DNA from: Acidobacteriaceae bacterium TAA 166
GTDB lineage: Bacteria > Acidobacteriota > Terriglobia > Terriglobales > Acidobacteriaceae
Direction: 5' to 3'
DNA: 64,000 nt
Assembly (NCBI GenBank): GCA_000421065.1
Contig: ATWD01000001.1
Location: 2,038,001-2,102,000 of the forward strand
The notes under the pieces were generated by a model that saw only the letters and a program-made list of their open reading frames with translations, made no database searches and was not told where the DNA came from. The position numbers and the translations under genes are program-made. Positions 1-5,649 of the stretch are shown one piece after another (positions within the stretch are counted from its first letter, which is position 1; each line of letters begins with the position of its first letter).

Positions 1-533
1 GTACCCTCCGTAAAATACGCCTGCAGCGCCGTGGCAAGTGTGCTCAAAAATGGCGTGTACGTGGATTCTGCAAGCTCCGGCACCGCAGGGCGCTCGATCG
101 AAAGTAGCCAGCGCAGGAGTCCGTCCCATTGATTGATGGGTTGGCCCGAAACAGCAGCTTCGCGGATGAGCACACCAGCACTCCCAGCCAGATCGCACAA
201 GTAGTATCCGGCACCGCTGAGAGTGAGGAGCTCTGTAGCAAGCTGTTCGCCGTATCGAGACGAAACGTAAGCGTGTAGGAATGCGGCTGCGAAACGGAGT
301 GCGAGAGGCTCTTCCGGCAAGATACGGCCTACGGAGTCAGTTCCATCCATCTCCAGGTCTGCGATGCGTGCGGCTTCATCGCCTAAAATTCCTATCACCA
401 ACGAAAGCAGCTCGGCTGGGTCGCTTCCCGACGTATCGAGATTAGCGAGCCCCTCGGGAACATTGAATTCGAACATGCGCGCCCGCGCATGTGTCATACC
501 GTCGATTCTGCGGGACGAACGCTCAGGCTTCAT
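1..533 (-). CDS. HamB-like helicase, N-terminal part (partial, runs off the window)
   Basis: An open reading frame runs leftward from the ATG at 533 to the window edge without a stop (about 177 codons). It overlaps the end of the upstream HamA-like gene by 11 bp, so the two are translationally coupled. The visible part is a helical N-terminal region with no Walker motif yet; it contains an AGYYLCDLAGSAGVL segment. From memory this resembles the helical region in front of the DEAD-box core of Hachiman-type and related defence helicases. In known Hachiman systems a HamA nuclease is paired with a large helicase, HamB, and order and overlap here fit that. The helicase assignment is inferred from neighbourhood and N-terminal resemblance; the motor domain lies outside the window. 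Confidence 0.6.
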   Translation of the reverse strand, partial: MKPERSSRRIDGMTHARARMFEFNVPEGLANLDTSGSDPAELLSLVIGILGDEAARIADLEMDGTDSVGRILPEEPLALRFAAAFLHAYVSSRYGEQLATELLTLSGAGYYLCDLAGSAGVLIREAAVSGQPINQWDGLLRWLLSIERPAVPELAESTYTPFLSTLATALQAYFTEG

Positions 534-1353
534 TCGCCGCCACCTCGAAAAGATGATGTACAAGAGTCATCATCTGATCACCCTTCAGGACGATCAGAAA
601 CAAATTTTCATGATTCGGATGATTCGCCACAGACACATTAGCGGCGCCTGCTTCTTCATAAACACTTTCACAATAGACCGCTGCAGCCGTGTATTGGCTT
701 TTGAAAGGATGGTCTACTTCACTCTGAAAGCGCCGTACTAACGCAGCTCCTGCCAGATCCTGATCTAAGCGCAGCCGTTGCTTCATGGCATTCAGGGTGA
801 AAGCCCGTCGTAGATGATCCTTCGCAGAGTGATCGATCGCATCCTGCAAACGTGGCTTCGCGCTTGTCCCCGAGAACTGGGCCTTGACCTCTACACTCAT
901 CAGGGTGTCGTTGGGCGAATATTGCTGCGCGTTGATGTTGGTCGTCGGATCGATGGCGAAAGCAAGGAAATCCGCGCCCTTGACCGACTCATCCGGCACT
1001 GCCTTTGCACGGTACCGAGTTCTCGGAACTCGCCAATTCAATACGTACTCGAAGTAATCCGCTACAAGGATTTCAGCGAAATCGCCGGCTCTGACGCTAG
1101 GACCCGGGGCCGTACTCTTGTTGGGAAATGCAAATTGCAGCAGAAAGTCTTTTCTGCTTAGCCCCGTTCCATCACGCGCTTCGTCAAGCACGGTATCCAG
1201 ATAGTAGTGCTCTCGAAAGTGTTTGGCCCAGGCAGACAGGACCGCGGGTTCTTCAAGGTGCTTGAATTCCAATACGCCTATCTGCCTTCCTTCGGGTGTC
1301 GTGATGACCTTGCCGGTGTTTTGTAACCAAGCGATATGTGAAGGCAGAGGCAT
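523..1353 (-). CDS. hamA: HamA-like (DUF1837-type) PD-(D/E)XK nuclease, candidate Hachiman effector
   Basis: This 276-residue cytoplasmic protein has a PD-(D/E)XK nuclease-like pattern: Glu94 in GDFAEILVADYFEY, Asp128 in GADFLAF and the E155-V-K157 pair in SVEVKAQF. The arrangement of a G-D/E-x-x-E-I-L helix, then a K-G-x-D strand, then ExK is that of DUF1837/HamA proteins, and the length is close to the family norm. In Hachiman, HamA is a DNA-degrading effector held inactive by HamB. The stop overlaps the start of the HamB-like frame by 11 bp. No good ribosome binding site is visible before the ATG, and 204 bp separate it from the Argonaute gene, so it may have its own promoter. A stand-alone restriction-type nuclease is the main alternative. 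Confidence 0.65.
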   Translation of the reverse strand: MPLPSHIAWLQNTGKVITTPEGRQIGVLEFKHLEEPAVLSAWAKHFREHYYLDTVLDEARDGTGLSRKDFLLQFAFPNKSTAPGPSVRAGDFAEILVADYFEYVLNWRVPRTRYRAKAVPDESVKGADFLAFAIDPTTNINAQQYSPNDTLMSVEVKAQFSGTSAKPRLQDAIDHSAKDHLRRAFTLNAMKQRLRLDQDLAGAALVRRFQSEVDHPFKSQYTAAAVYCESVYEEAGAANVSVANHPNHENLFLIVLKGDQMMTLVHHLFEVAANEA

Positions 1354-1557
1354 TTTCGATGACGGGTGTCATAAACTCGACTGAAAAGGGACAATGACAT
1401 TGTAATTGCCGTCTGTGTGAACAAAAGACATGCGACGAAGGGTTATTCAACTGGTGACTGGGCCAGCCTCAGCTAGAAGGTCCCGAACCTTGCAGTCCGC
1501 GATGGCCAATGTTTGCAGGAGGTCAAGATCAGGTTTGCTGAGCTCTCGTTTCAGCCT

Positions 1558-3030
1558 TCAAATGAAGAAACGGAAACTCGGCTGCACCGAACCGCCCTCG
1601 GGGATACATTTCAGAATGTCGCCAACCCGCCGGGCAGCCCGAAGGGTGATCGGTTCACCGCCGTCGAACTGTGTATTGTTCCAATTTAACTTGGAGAGCG
1701 AGAGCATTTCCTTGGCAATCTGCTCAATCGACGCTTCTGATCGGGTGACAGACAGCTCCAGTGGACGCGGCACGTACATACCGGGGTAGGTTTGGAAGAA
1801 CTGGACGCTACCCCGCAGGTACAGCAAACCGGTGTCAGCCTGCATCTTCAAGAAGGTGCCGCGTAAGGGCGGGTAGGTTCCTTCCCGAAAGAGCCGCGTA
1901 AAAGACCGTTTGACGCTGATCAATTCCACCGAATCAATATCGTGGTCTTCGGCAGCTTCCTCAAAACCAGCAACCTCCCCCGCCGTGAGCCGGGACGTTT
2001 TATGTACCACCAGACGCGCAGGGCTGGTGTGATGTTCTTTCCGATAGACCGCAATCGCATTCTTCAGCAGGGCTTTTGCGTCGTCCCTGCTCAAATGAGG
2101 CTGGCGATCATTCTTATCGAGTTGCGCCTGAGCCCCTTTGACGATGATCCCTTCGCCGCGCTCATTGAACACCTGAGCTACTGAAGTCATGACGAGATCC
2201 CCATCCAGACTCCGGTAGAAGCTGATCCCGACAAAGCACGTCGTCAGTTCGCTCGGGCTTCGCAGCAAACGCCAAGGCGCACCCCCGGCCTTGTAGTAAA
2301 GAGCCGTGTGAATGTTCCACGCTCGTGTCGCTTCATCCTGTAATGGCAATGAAAGCGCGCGCGAGTTCTTGCTACGTCGCCCCTGACCTCCATAGGTAGA
2401 AGGACGTACCATTTGGATCGGTACTCCCACGCGCATGATCTCTGCTTTCAACAAGTCGTGGAAAGCTGGAATCGCAGTATTGTCGTCTTCGGCTGCTTCA
2501 GAGCTTTCGTCCAACTCCTGTTCCTGGCTGTCCAATTTCTTTGCGATCTTCGCATCGACAGCGTCCAACAAGTCTTTCGGAGGGGCGCAGATGACCACCA
2601 TGGGGCCAGCCGTTTCCTTAACGGCTGCGACATTTTCAACGAAGAGCTTGACGCAATCCTGTATCAGCGTCGGACTCCCTTGATTCTTGAGGAGCATATC
2701 AATCTCTTTTTGTCGCAGTGTTGACGTCCAGCGATCGTGGAATGCCAGCTGTGACCGGAACGTTGTGTCGGAACGGAATCCGGGAAAGAGTGGAAATAGA
2801 TTGCTCAACCGGCTTTTCTTCGCGCCCACGCCCGACTCGCAACTCTGGAGCCAGCTCCGAATACCGTCGACACTCTCGCTGGTTCCCACCAGCCCTACCC
2901 GAATCTGATTCGGGGCTGTGGCTTCGCCGAGGTCCAGCGGACCGTGTTGCATTAAGCCGTGGCGGATGTCGACATGCGTTCCACCGGACCCAAACTCCAA
3001 CTCTGGTTCGTCGAAGAACTCGATTTTCAT
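1558..3030 (-). CDS. Short prokaryotic Argonaute (MID-PIWI), catalytically inactive
   Basis: This 490-residue protein has the size and layout of a short pAgo without N and PAZ domains: an N-terminal and MID region up to about residue 255 and PIWI from about 262 to the end. Recognisable PIWI landmarks are YYKAGGAPWRL, CFVGISFYRS, RLVVHKTSRLTAGEV, a YLRGSVQFFQTYPGMYVPRPLEL-type strand region and the terminal NWNNTQFDGGEPITLR helix. The first catalytic aspartate (VGID/VGVD in active enzymes) is Ser270 here, so slicing is not expected. Short pAgos of this kind use a guide to sense invading nucleic acid and then activate an associated effector. The start overlaps the stop of the upstream DUF4365-APAZ gene (ATGA), which makes them an obligate-looking pair. 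Recognition is by motif, not by search. Confidence 0.82.
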   Translation of the reverse strand: MKIEFFDEPELEFGSGGTHVDIRHGLMQHGPLDLGEATAPNQIRVGLVGTSESVDGIRSWLQSCESGVGAKKSRLSNLFPLFPGFRSDTTFRSQLAFHDRWTSTLRQKEIDMLLKNQGSPTLIQDCVKLFVENVAAVKETAGPMVVICAPPKDLLDAVDAKIAKKLDSQEQELDESSEAAEDDNTAIPAFHDLLKAEIMRVGVPIQMVRPSTYGGQGRRSKNSRALSLPLQDEATRAWNIHTALYYKAGGAPWRLLRSPSELTTCFVGISFYRSLDGDLVMTSVAQVFNERGEGIIVKGAQAQLDKNDRQPHLSRDDAKALLKNAIAVYRKEHHTSPARLVVHKTSRLTAGEVAGFEEAAEDHDIDSVELISVKRSFTRLFREGTYPPLRGTFLKMQADTGLLYLRGSVQFFQTYPGMYVPRPLELSVTRSEASIEQIAKEMLSLSKLNWNNTQFDGGEPITLRAARRVGDILKCIPEGGSVQPSFRFFI

Positions 3031-4457
3031 TCGCGTTCTCCAGTCGGCGTTTCGATGGGAAGGAGGCCTTGCAAGGTGCTCTGCTGATCCATTTCCGTAG
3101 TCTCGGGATCATTCTGTTGCCAGGATTTGTCATCAATGCCGACACCGATGTTGATCGTGTTCAGTTCTCCAAAGACGATCATCGGGGGGCCCTCCGAAAA
3201 CAGCCCATCATCAGGCTGCAGATAGTCGGCCCAAAATAGAACAGAGCTCAGGACAGCGCGGTTTCCCTCAATCTCCTTGATCTTTTTCAGGCGCGATTCG
3301 TGGAACTTATCTTTCCGGTAACCGTCGGTGGTGAAGCGGTACGTGGGCGTAATCTCAAGAAACCATGCGTCGTCGAGGAATCTGAATTGCGCCCGGAAGG
3401 CCATGTGTCTCCAGTAATAAAATGTTCGGCCATCCATCGACTTGGAGCTGAATTTCGAGACCACACTGAGCCCACTCGTGCGCTTGAGTGACTTATAAGA
3501 CTGCTTTCTTTCCTGGCCAGCGATGGCGTAGCACTCATCCTTGGGCCAGAAGCGCAGATGCGACTCCACTTGCAATTTGAATGTCGCATTGAGGAGTTGA
3601 ACAAACAGGCGCTTTCGCTCCGGGTCGGACGATTCCGACCACTCGCTGGTTTCGAAGCCCTCGACCGTACCTGGCTCGCAGATCCCATCCCAATCATCGC
3701 TCGATAGGTCATCGAAGCTGATGATCTTCTTTTCCCATGGAATCCAGCCGGATCGGAGCTTTGCCTTATTTTTGTTAAGCGCCCTCCAGATATCTCCGCG
3801 CTCCCGAAGTTCCGTGCCTCCCACGAACACCAGGTCGGGAAGTCCATCGATTCTAAGCAAATTGCTCCAAAGGCGTTCACGCTCGGGTCGAGGAGCGATA
3901 TAGAGTCCCCGCGTTGGCGCTCCAATCCGTACGAGTTCCGTCAGGGCGCTGGGATCGAACCGCGCCTGGTCCTTGCGGAACAGAACAGTAGTCGGGTCTC
4001 CCGGCTTCCAATTCGGAAATGCATCCTGAAGCCAAACCCAGTAGGCCTGTTCCGTTTCCGGATCCGAAACGATCAGGATGACGGGGATGTTGCTCTTGAG
4101 CCAGTAATCAAGATCCCCGGCGTCGCACGTGTACCGGAACTCTTCCGTGGCCTCGCGGATGGACGATACCACCTTGCTCTGCGCGGCCAATGTCAAACCA
4201 AGGGACAGGCGGGAGGTAGGATCAAACAGCTCGATGTATCCATCGATACCGACCTCATTCGCTCCGCTGGCTGTCCACCGGGAGCCCATCTTGAGAAGAA
4301 TCCCTTCAATAAGATTGACACCTTTTTGCCCAGCAATCCCTTGCGCGGAGATTGTCTTTGGGCGAACACCGTTCTTATTGTGCCTTCGTTGGGCCATCCT
4401 TCCATTTAACTCGAAGATGCCTTGGGATTTCACCTGTTGAGTGCAAAAGTGGTACAC
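3027..4457 (-). CDS. DUF4365 (DREN)-APAZ effector nuclease, partner of the short Argonaute
   Basis: The N-terminal third carries a DUF4365/PD-(D/E)XK-type nuclease signature: Glu51, then GIDGYIELFD with Asp72 and Glu76, and Q93-S-K95 in LAAQSKVV. The region from about residue 190 to 450 resembles the APAZ domain that replaces the missing half of short pAgos; typical parts are LVFVGGTELRERGDIW, the YYWRHMAFRAQFRFLDDAWFLEI strands and the SRLKKIKEIEGNRAVLSSV helix. This pairing is that of SPARDA-type systems, where guide and target recognition unleashes indiscriminate nuclease activity and kills or arrests the infected cell. The first possible start is a GTG at 4457; an ATG at residue 21 (4397) gives a 456-residue product and may be the true start. 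Its stop overlaps the pAgo start by 4 bp. Confidence 0.8.
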   Translation of the reverse strand: MYHFCTQQVKSQGIFELNGRMAQRRHNKNGVRPKTISAQGIAGQKGVNLIEGILLKMGSRWTASGANEVGIDGYIELFDPTSRLSLGLTLAAQSKVVSSIREATEEFRYTCDAGDLDYWLKSNIPVILIVSDPETEQAYWVWLQDAFPNWKPGDPTTVLFRKDQARFDPSALTELVRIGAPTRGLYIAPRPERERLWSNLLRIDGLPDLVFVGGTELRERGDIWRALNKNKAKLRSGWIPWEKKIISFDDLSSDDWDGICEPGTVEGFETSEWSESSDPERKRLFVQLLNATFKLQVESHLRFWPKDECYAIAGQERKQSYKSLKRTSGLSVVSKFSSKSMDGRTFYYWRHMAFRAQFRFLDDAWFLEITPTYRFTTDGYRKDKFHESRLKKIKEIEGNRAVLSSVLFWADYLQPDDGLFSEGPPMIVFGELNTINIGVGIDDKSWQQNDPETTEMDQQSTLQGLLPIETPTGERE

Positions 4458-4602
4458 CTACGCGTTTGGGACCACGGCAACGACTGTCGAGCCTTGCCCT
4501 GGCGGTCAATAAGCGACGGCTCGAAAGGTTCTCGCTAATCGGAGCCGGACGTAGATAGCGACCTGACTCCAGTCCTTCCAATCACATTCTGGTAGACCAG
4601 CT

Positions 4603-5649
4603 TCACGCATCACTTGCAGGATGCCCAGCGTACCAGGCATCGTCTTTCATTCGCTGCTCAATCAGGCGCGGGGATGAGTCGATGAGATCAAGCAGACACC
4701 ATGCTGGAACAACCCCCATCATGCCCGCGTGAACCTGCACCATGTGTCCCTCCTGCAGCGGGTATCCCCGAAAATCCAGGAGGCGAACTTGCTCAGGAAC
4801 ATGACCCCAGTCCACGCCGAGCAGTCGCATATCCATCATCGGCAACACAGCACGTCTGTTGTTCACGGCGTGCTGATTGAGTGTGAATACGGGTGAGCCG
4901 CTATATCCGCTCCTTGACCGAGCTTCGACCAGAAAGCCTACCTGCGAAGTCCGCGTGTGGTTGTCGATGTCATACGTAATCGGCTCACGTTCATTGGGAT
5001 TCATCGAGATATTCCCAAACCGAACCGAAGGCATGTTTTCGTACTTTCCAGCATGACCGGCGAACCTGCCCACATAGACCACATCGTCGCCCGGCCCGAT
5101 GTCCTCTTCCACGAACTGCTTCCTTGTCAGCAGGAAATCTCGCGTTATGACCGAAAACTCAGCGAGAGGCGTATTGAAATCAGGCGGAAGCATACACACT
5201 GCCAAATCGTTGGCCGGATCTGTCACCCAATCAGCCTGCTTGAAGTCCAACACGATCGTCCGCTCGAAGTCATCACCAGGATTTCTTAGATTCATCCGCA
5301 CGACCGGGCAATTGGGCTGACCTTCAATGACGTGCTTATTCGTAACGATGTAGATGTGGTCGCACTGCTCTATGTGTCTGCGAACTTCCGCGTTCGCATT
5401 TGCGATTGTCTTAGCCTTCTGACGGTCTCCGGACTCGTGTGCGATCCGGAAATCATCCATTAATTCTTTCCGAACTTGATCCACCAAGGAGGGATCGTTC
5501 TGGACGACTGGACGGATTCCACCTGATACAGCGGAACGTTCAGCTAATAAGAAGCCGCTTGCTCCGGTCTCGGAACCATTTTGCGCGTGATCGCGATCCG
5601 GGTAGAGGTAAACGATGCTGTTGAGGATGACTGTAGGGATTCTCGGCAT
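4603..5649 (-). CDS. Trypsin-like serine protease, cytosolic, defence-island neighbour
   Basis: The 348-residue protein has a complete chymotrypsin-fold triad: His106 in YIVTNKHVIEG, Asp148 in ANDLAVCML and Ser250 in SRSGYSGSPVF. A charged, probably helical insertion (about residues 45-95) sits between the first strand and the catalytic His. No signal peptide or membrane segment is seen, so it probably acts in the cytoplasm, unlike DegP-type proteases, and no PDZ domain follows. It lies 145 bp upstream of the DREN-APAZ/pAgo pair on the same strand and may be co-transcribed. Trypsin-like proteases occur in several defence systems as effectors or activators; a role with the Argonaute is inference from position only. 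The fold is secure, the biological role unknown. Confidence 0.75.
   Translation of the reverse strand: MPRIPTVILNSIVYLYPDRDHAQNGSETGASGFLLAERSAVSGGIRPVVQNDPSLVDQVRKELMDDFRIAHESGDRQKAKTIANANAEVRRHIEQCDHIYIVTNKHVIEGQPNCPVVRMNLRNPGDDFERTIVLDFKQADWVTDPANDLAVCMLPPDFNTPLAEFSVITRDFLLTRKQFVEEDIGPGDDVVYVGRFAGHAGKYENMPSVRFGNISMNPNEREPITYDIDNHTRTSQVGFLVEARSRSGYSGSPVFTLNQHAVNNRRAVLPMMDMRLLGVDWGHVPEQVRLLDFRGYPLQEGHMVQVHAGMMGVVPAWCLLDLIDSSPRLIEQRMKDDAWYAGHPASDA

Follow-up and report, generated by a model that had tools for sequence, protein, structure and literature searches.

Adjacent SPARDA and Hachiman genes in an Acidobacteriaceae genome: a probable defence island of two separate systems beside a protease

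Introduction

Five neighbouring genes of Acidobacteriaceae bacterium TAA 166 raise the question of whether two anti-phage systems and a protease form one combined defence system or are separate units that share a locus. The genes lie at the left end of the window, the stretch of 64,000 nucleotides that was analysed. The genome (G000) has 6.1 Mb in three contigs, and the window spans 2038001-2102000 of the contig of 4.7 Mb. The original prediction placed a Hachiman-like pair, a short prokaryotic Argonaute (pAgo) system and a trypsin-like protease back to back, and proposed cooperation or a combined island. The comparisons reported below favour a defence island with two separate known anti-phage systems and a toxin-antitoxin pair. 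Mobile cargo probably brought the two systems together on more than one occasion, and the protease is probably unrelated.

Gene layout of the island

The five genes predicted for one strand are all on the minus strand, and their identities as HamA-like, partial HamB-like, short pAgo, DREN-APAZ and trypsin-like protease genes were confirmed by PADLOC, Pfam and PDB matches (Table 1). The order on the minus strand is protease, DREN(DUF4365)-APAZ, short pAgo, hamA, hamB, a HigB-type toxin and its helix-turn-helix partner. The proposed coupling of two gene pairs is real, with an overlap of 4 bp between DREN-APAZ and pAgo (3027-3030) and of 11 bp between HamA and HamB (523-533). The start of DREN-APAZ was inferred as the ATG at 4397 in a frame that opens at GTG 4457, and from this start the gap to the protease is 205 bp. 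The gap between pAgo and HamA is 204 bp. A sigma-70 consensus scan of the locus gave 0 sites (3.8 in shuffled sequences), and the 7 terminator-like sites are at chance level (6.7 in shuffles). PADLOC gave no match in the three genes to the right of the island. The SPARDA, Hachiman and protease parts look intact.

Table 1. Island genes inside the window, in window positions
Gene product	Position	Strand	Length	Residues	Matches and remarks
Trypsin-like serine protease, standalone	4603..5649	-	348 aa	H106-D148-S250	Pfam Trypsin_2, PADLOC PDC-S45
DREN(DUF4365)-APAZ, SPARDA effector half	3027..4397	-			Pfam DUF4365, PADLOC Aga_REase, PDB 9qbq
Short prokaryotic Argonaute (MID-PIWI)	1558..3030	-	490 aa		PADLOC pAgo_I, PDB chains
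HamA nuclease of Hachiman	523..1353	-	276 aa	D128, E155, K157	PADLOC HamA1, Pfam HamA
HamB helicase, first part	1..533 (3-533 in profile match)	-			Continues left to G000:C1:2035360

The SPARDA module

The short pAgo matches PADLOC pAgo_I with E=9.7e-173 and the PDB chains 9qbp, 9qbl and 9jsb over nearly its full length (E 2e-104 to 7e-95). It has the size of a MID-PIWI protein and shares an operon with an APAZ protein. The latter matches Pfam DUF4365 (E=3.6e-22), PADLOC Aga_REase (E=1e-129) and PDB 9qbq (E=8.6e-51), and it aligns with SPARDA chains over nearly its whole length. The DREN domain carries the D, Q and K of the catalytic site as D52, Q73 and K75, which in a sequence alignment correspond to D41, Q60 and K62 of NbaSPARDA, the residues named as catalytic in PMC12205087. 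In the HMMER alignment to the NbaSPARDA chain a gap shifts the K column, and no such shift is seen in two other chains. By its family membership the pAgo would be dead, short pAgos being described as catalytically inactive in PMC10810196.

Compared with known SPARDA systems (e.g. NbaSPARDA, PDB 9jsb, PMC12205087), the module has the same two-gene operon, matches the PDB chains and keeps the DREN D/Q/K. The module itself showed no difference, and what sets the locus apart is the Hachiman pair that comes next. A pAgo search of plasmids gave 98 records, all below 60% identity, and a search of viral contigs gave 2 loci.

In other short-pAgo operons the N-terminus of the APAZ protein is PNP_UDP_1 instead of DREN (L091:8217-10004, L035:10671-12461, L187:7504-9297 and L188:10033-11826; Pfam E 2e-11 to 9e-14). 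A tblastn search with this N-terminus gave matches in 13 of the 104 loci searched. PNP effectors with pAgo are already known (PMC10952713).

The Hachiman module and the HigBA-like pair

HamA matches PADLOC HamA1 with E=8.4e-98 and Pfam HamA with E=7.1e-06, and it covers positions 5-270 of the 271 profile positions. The D...ExK nuclease residues are present. The published motif is D-GEXK (PMC12799240), and the residue before ExK is V in the window and G in that motif. A PDB search with HamA gave no match at E<=1, and a structure model from a 5-row alignment was poor (mean pLDDT 46.2).

The first part of HamB matches PADLOC HamB1 with E=1.7e-26 over profile positions 1-171 of 1037. A helicase core had been expected to the left of the window, and it was found there: the complete HamB is a single frame of 1057 aa (G000:C1:2035360-2038533) that matches PDLC00188 with 1168 bits over profile positions 1-1034 of 1037, matches Pfam DEAD and Helicase_C, and contains the helicase motifs TSAGKT, DEGH and GRAGR. 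A superfamily-2 helicase HamB is therefore encoded beside HamA. In comparison with Hachiman HamAB (PADLOC HamA1 PDLC00161 and HamB1 PDLC00188; PMC12278908), the module has the same HamA D/E/K, the same HamB motifs and coupled genes, and no difference was found save the V for G before ExK in HamA. Both modules belong to systems that are known individually, as the original prediction stated.

The gene directly downstream of HamB matches Pfam HigB_toxin with E=5e-23 and encodes a toxin of the HigB type. Its helix-turn-helix partner matches HTH_3 with E=0.0025, which is below the cut-off; the pair occupies L002:8381-9153, which is G000:C1:2034381-2035153. HigBA-like pairs were also seen in the pAgo locus L089 and beside a relative of the protease in L222.

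Recurrence of SPARDA beside Hachiman

Recurrence of the gene order, which the original prediction took as support for a combined system, was found for a part of it. SPARDA-Hachiman adjacency recurs in G394, G543 and L052 and is over-represented in the family sample described next, and the five-gene order was found in none of the other loci. Among 200 genomes of the family, the pAgo query matched in 25, eight of them at 40% identity or more. The APAZ partners of these eight are DUF4365 in four (G000, G543, G305, G394), PNP_UDP_1 in three and SMEK in one, a typing that covers these eight out of the 25 matches.

HamB genes of more than 1000 aa are present in G000, G394, G543 and G550, and in G536 a contig of 3.6 kb breaks off within a HamB gene, of which a fragment remains. 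A protein search with the HamB of the island matched in 133 of the 200 genomes, from which the four matches below 1e-15 were kept and the other 129 genomes left uncounted. The PDLC00174 search matched in 7 of 200; by their lengths the matches in G257 (646 aa) and G452 (800 aa) were taken for other helicases and left out, and G536, with its HamB on the 3.6-kb contig, was retained as a fragment. Hachiman may be undercounted, since the HamB searches score few candidates per genome. By these counts Hachiman occurs in 5 of the 200 genomes (one being the fragment) and DUF4365-type SPARDA in 4, and the three genomes with both (G000, G394, G543) have them adjacent. With TAA 166 itself left out, two of the three DUF4365-SPARDA genomes fall among four Hachiman genomes (p=0.0009, or p=0.0005 when the HamB fragment is also left out), a statistic that is post hoc and involves few genomes. 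SPARDA without Hachiman nearby was found in G305 and L053, and G550 has Hachiman in a genome without a pAgo match.

At least 554 pAgo relatives came out of a contig scan, and the analysis retained the 80 best. L052, from an Edaphobacter MAG, is among these best 80 of at least 554 and has HamA-HamB 2.4 kb from DREN-APAZ; across the three other acidobacterial loci (G394, G543, L052) the distance between the systems is at most 2.4 kb. Pairing outside the family was seen, among the best 80 of at least 554 loci, in L093 and L113 only, with divergent HamB-like helicases. In a set of 100 pAgo loci, which includes the island itself and in which each of the pairs L054/L034, L077/L187 and L123/L037 represents one contig as judged by length, the HamB HMM at E<=1e-20 matched the island, L036 (G394), L052, L184 (G543), L093 and L113, and the HamA HMM matched the island, L036 (G394), L052 and L184 (G543). 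A phylum sample of 396 genomes gave HamB-profile matches in 14, and 11 of these are candidate Hachiman genomes from outside the family. None of the 11 has a pAgo match on the HamB contig, and the SPARDA-Hachiman association therefore lies mainly in Acidobacteriaceae. A literature search that covered few subscription papers did not find SPARDA-Hachiman adjacency described as a system.

Order, partners and divergence

The island in TAA 166 has SPARDA and then HamAB, with a HamB of the PDLC00188 type. Elsewhere this order was found in G394 only, which has one gene in between, HamAB of the other type (PDLC00174) and a pAgo 46% identical to that of the island. The gene in between (L036:10491-11177) is weakly DUF2971-like (E=0.002, below the cut-off); it overlaps the pAgo end by 4 bp and precedes HamA. 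G543 and L052 have HamAB first and then SPARDA, the stretch between the systems differs in the two loci, and their pAgos are 80-81% identical to that of the island. The Hachiman of G543 is of the PDLC00174 type, and that of L052 was assigned by 80% identity to the one in G394. Between Hachiman and SPARDA in L052, a 547-aa protein is encoded on the opposite strand (L052:5376-7019), with no Pfam or PADLOC match at thresholds.

Judged from the sequences, partner type and order represent at least three different SPARDA-Hachiman combinations. Because order and partner lineages are swapped, repeated assembly of an island is favoured over a single combined system of fixed form. The original prediction holds for the island; a fixed system finds no support in loci that differ in gene order, in the genes between the modules and in the lineages of the partners. 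In-place replacement of a module is an alternative to separate assembly.

G543 and L052 are 92-95% identical in SPARDA, 83% in HamA and 80% in HamB. Four-fold silent sites are identical at 164 of 280 positions in SPARDA and at 117 of 332 in HamB (p=1e-8), and at 33 of 68 in HamA (p=0.14 against SPARDA). At the amino-acid level the HamA of G543 is nearer to that of G394 (87%), with a bootstrap of 0.94, and the bootstrap for HamB is 0.65. Comparison of nucleotides and silent sites pairs G543 with L052 as nearest for both HamA and HamB, so the two loci may be one pairing in which HamB was later replaced or changed faster. The Granulicella locus L053 has a pAgo 97.7% identical to that of G543 and no Hachiman within its 21 kb.

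Mobile-element context

ParB-like and ArdC-like neighbours are common to L052, G394 and the SIR2-type pAgo locus of G249, and an integrase-like gene is 96% identical between G543 and the PNP-APAZ pAgo locus of G049; these names are our reading of the sequences. Because such genes are shared, the pairing is most simply traced to the cargo sites of integrative elements. In the region 2008001-2102000 around the island, no relative of the ParB-like, ArdC-like and integrase-like genes was found at E<=1e-20. The island is not flanked by direct repeats of at least 16 bp, and its GC content is ordinary. A gene in L053 (L053:5614-6063) is 89% identical over 129 aligned aa to one in TAA 166 (G000:C1:2030647-2031315). 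In L053 it is separated from SPARDA by 2-3 kb, and in TAA 166 it sits about 3 kb past the HigBA end of the island, which may reflect a shared insertion neighbourhood.

The protease

The protease matches Pfam Trypsin_2 with E=3.4e-06 (28.3 bits against a cut-off of 27.6) and PADLOC PDC-S45 with E=2.6e-14, and its triad is invariant in a 5-row alignment. The structure model from that alignment was poor (mean pLDDT 33.9). Searches gave no PDB match at E<=1 and, by tblastn, no match in plasmids. Relatives were found by protein search in 5 of the 396 phylum genomes and PDC-S45 profile matches in 29 of the 200 family genomes, both counts including TAA 166. Among these 29, the match shares a contig with a matched pAgo or HamB in TAA 166 only. 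In five of the other 28 genomes a different contig carries a pAgo match, and the assemblies of G413 and G547 are fragmented, so that a contig break may have separated neighbours there.

The protease family HMM gave no match in the flanks of the 99 other pAgo loci, some of which are short, so that the conserved co-occurrence expected of a combined five-gene system was not seen there. Inspection of 16 relatives with their neighbours found no HamA, HamB, DREN-APAZ or pAgo in the stretch covered. The relative in G504 adjoins a HigBA-like pair. A scan for trypsin motifs in 1424 gene calls from 98 loci gave 17 matches and overlooked a fourth known relative, in L045. Three matches are the protease relatives in L043, L044 and L046. 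Four others resemble HtrA by motif alone: those in three Nostoc loci are on the opposite strand at a distance of about 2 kb from DREN-APAZ, and the one in L085 is about 3 kb away from pAgo. The remaining matches appear to be due to chance.

Activation by proteolysis has been described for Hachiman (PMC12799240). The variant in question, HamMAB, has a protease fused to HamA and an MBL-type nuclease gene upstream, and its HamA motif is nearly always lost. The island shares with HamMAB a trypsin-like protease and Hachiman at one locus. It differs from that description in having a separate protease gene with SPARDA in between and in keeping the HamA active site; HamA fills its profile, and a Pfam scan of the genes in Table 1, the complete HamB and the toxin-antitoxin pair recognised no MBL-type nuclease. 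The protease was rejected as a system component, since it does not recur beside SPARDA or Hachiman in the loci covered and the HamMAB hallmarks are missing among the genes scanned. Its predicted part in the combination is therefore not upheld, and it is probably a bystander outside either system.

Discussion

The best explanation of the locus, which we consider probable, is a defence island. It would consist of two distinct known systems and a toxin-antitoxin pair next to an unrelated protease, the two systems having been joined from mobile cargo on more than one occasion. The short pAgo loaded with guide RNA would recognise invader DNA, upon which SPARDA complexes would form filaments and the DREN domains would turn into collateral nucleases. 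HamB would monitor DNA for damage or ends and then unleash the HamA nuclease. Both systems would act by abortive infection, killing or stalling the infected cell via different triggers. They are probably interchangeable cargo modules in Acidobacteriaceae, at least partly on integrative elements. The comparisons show which genes are present and that they carry catalytic motifs, that the pairing recurs, and that partners and order are exchanged; we infer the activity of the two systems, their mutual independence and the cause of their co-location.

Defence systems are known to cluster, and ordinary clustering, with the family recurrence reflecting the sampling of few related elements, is the next candidate, though an unlikely one. 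It agrees with the element genes shared beside several pAgo loci, with the possible single origin of the L052 and G543 pairings and with the rarity of the pairing outside Acidobacteriaceae; however, 3 of the 5 Hachiman genomes and 3 of the 4 DUF4365-SPARDA genomes among the 200 coincide, and both the Hachiman type and the SPARDA lineage vary between them.

A relay from SPARDA to Hachiman is more doubtful still. Collateral DREN cuts would make nicks or ends sensed by HamB, so that recognition by SPARDA would fire Hachiman, and selection for this relay would explain a pairing rebuilt repeatedly with different partners in Acidobacteriaceae. Activated SPARDA is a collateral nuclease (PMC12205087), HamAB has nicks, 3' ssDNA ends and DNA damage as its triggers (PMC12278908), and the pairing persists despite differing partners. 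Against the relay stand the unpaired systems (SPARDA in G305 and L053, Hachiman in G550) and the spacing of the units, which are about 200 bp or more apart.

Gating by the protease, which would cleave or activate HamA, DREN-APAZ or pAgo as in the nuclease-protease pairs of Hachiman and AVAST, is very improbable: the gene is on the same strand upstream of SPARDA with its triad present, and proteolytic activation has a precedent in Hachiman (PMC12799240), but the protease is not fused to HamA, no MBL-type nuclease is among the island genes, HamA keeps D/E/K, and the protease is absent from the 99 other pAgo flanks and, in the 28 other family genomes, never on a matched pAgo or HamB contig.

As a caution, the neighbouring protease should not be added to SPARDA or Hachiman. 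From a soil phylum, the island contributes new members to SPARDA and to Hachiman, and their motifs are intact. Since four natural loci with different partners join an RNA-guided nuclease and a DNA-damage sensor, cooperation of adjacent systems is testable with matched pairs. If the relay were true, defence would proceed in two steps, from sequence-guided recognition to DNA-damage-triggered suicide.
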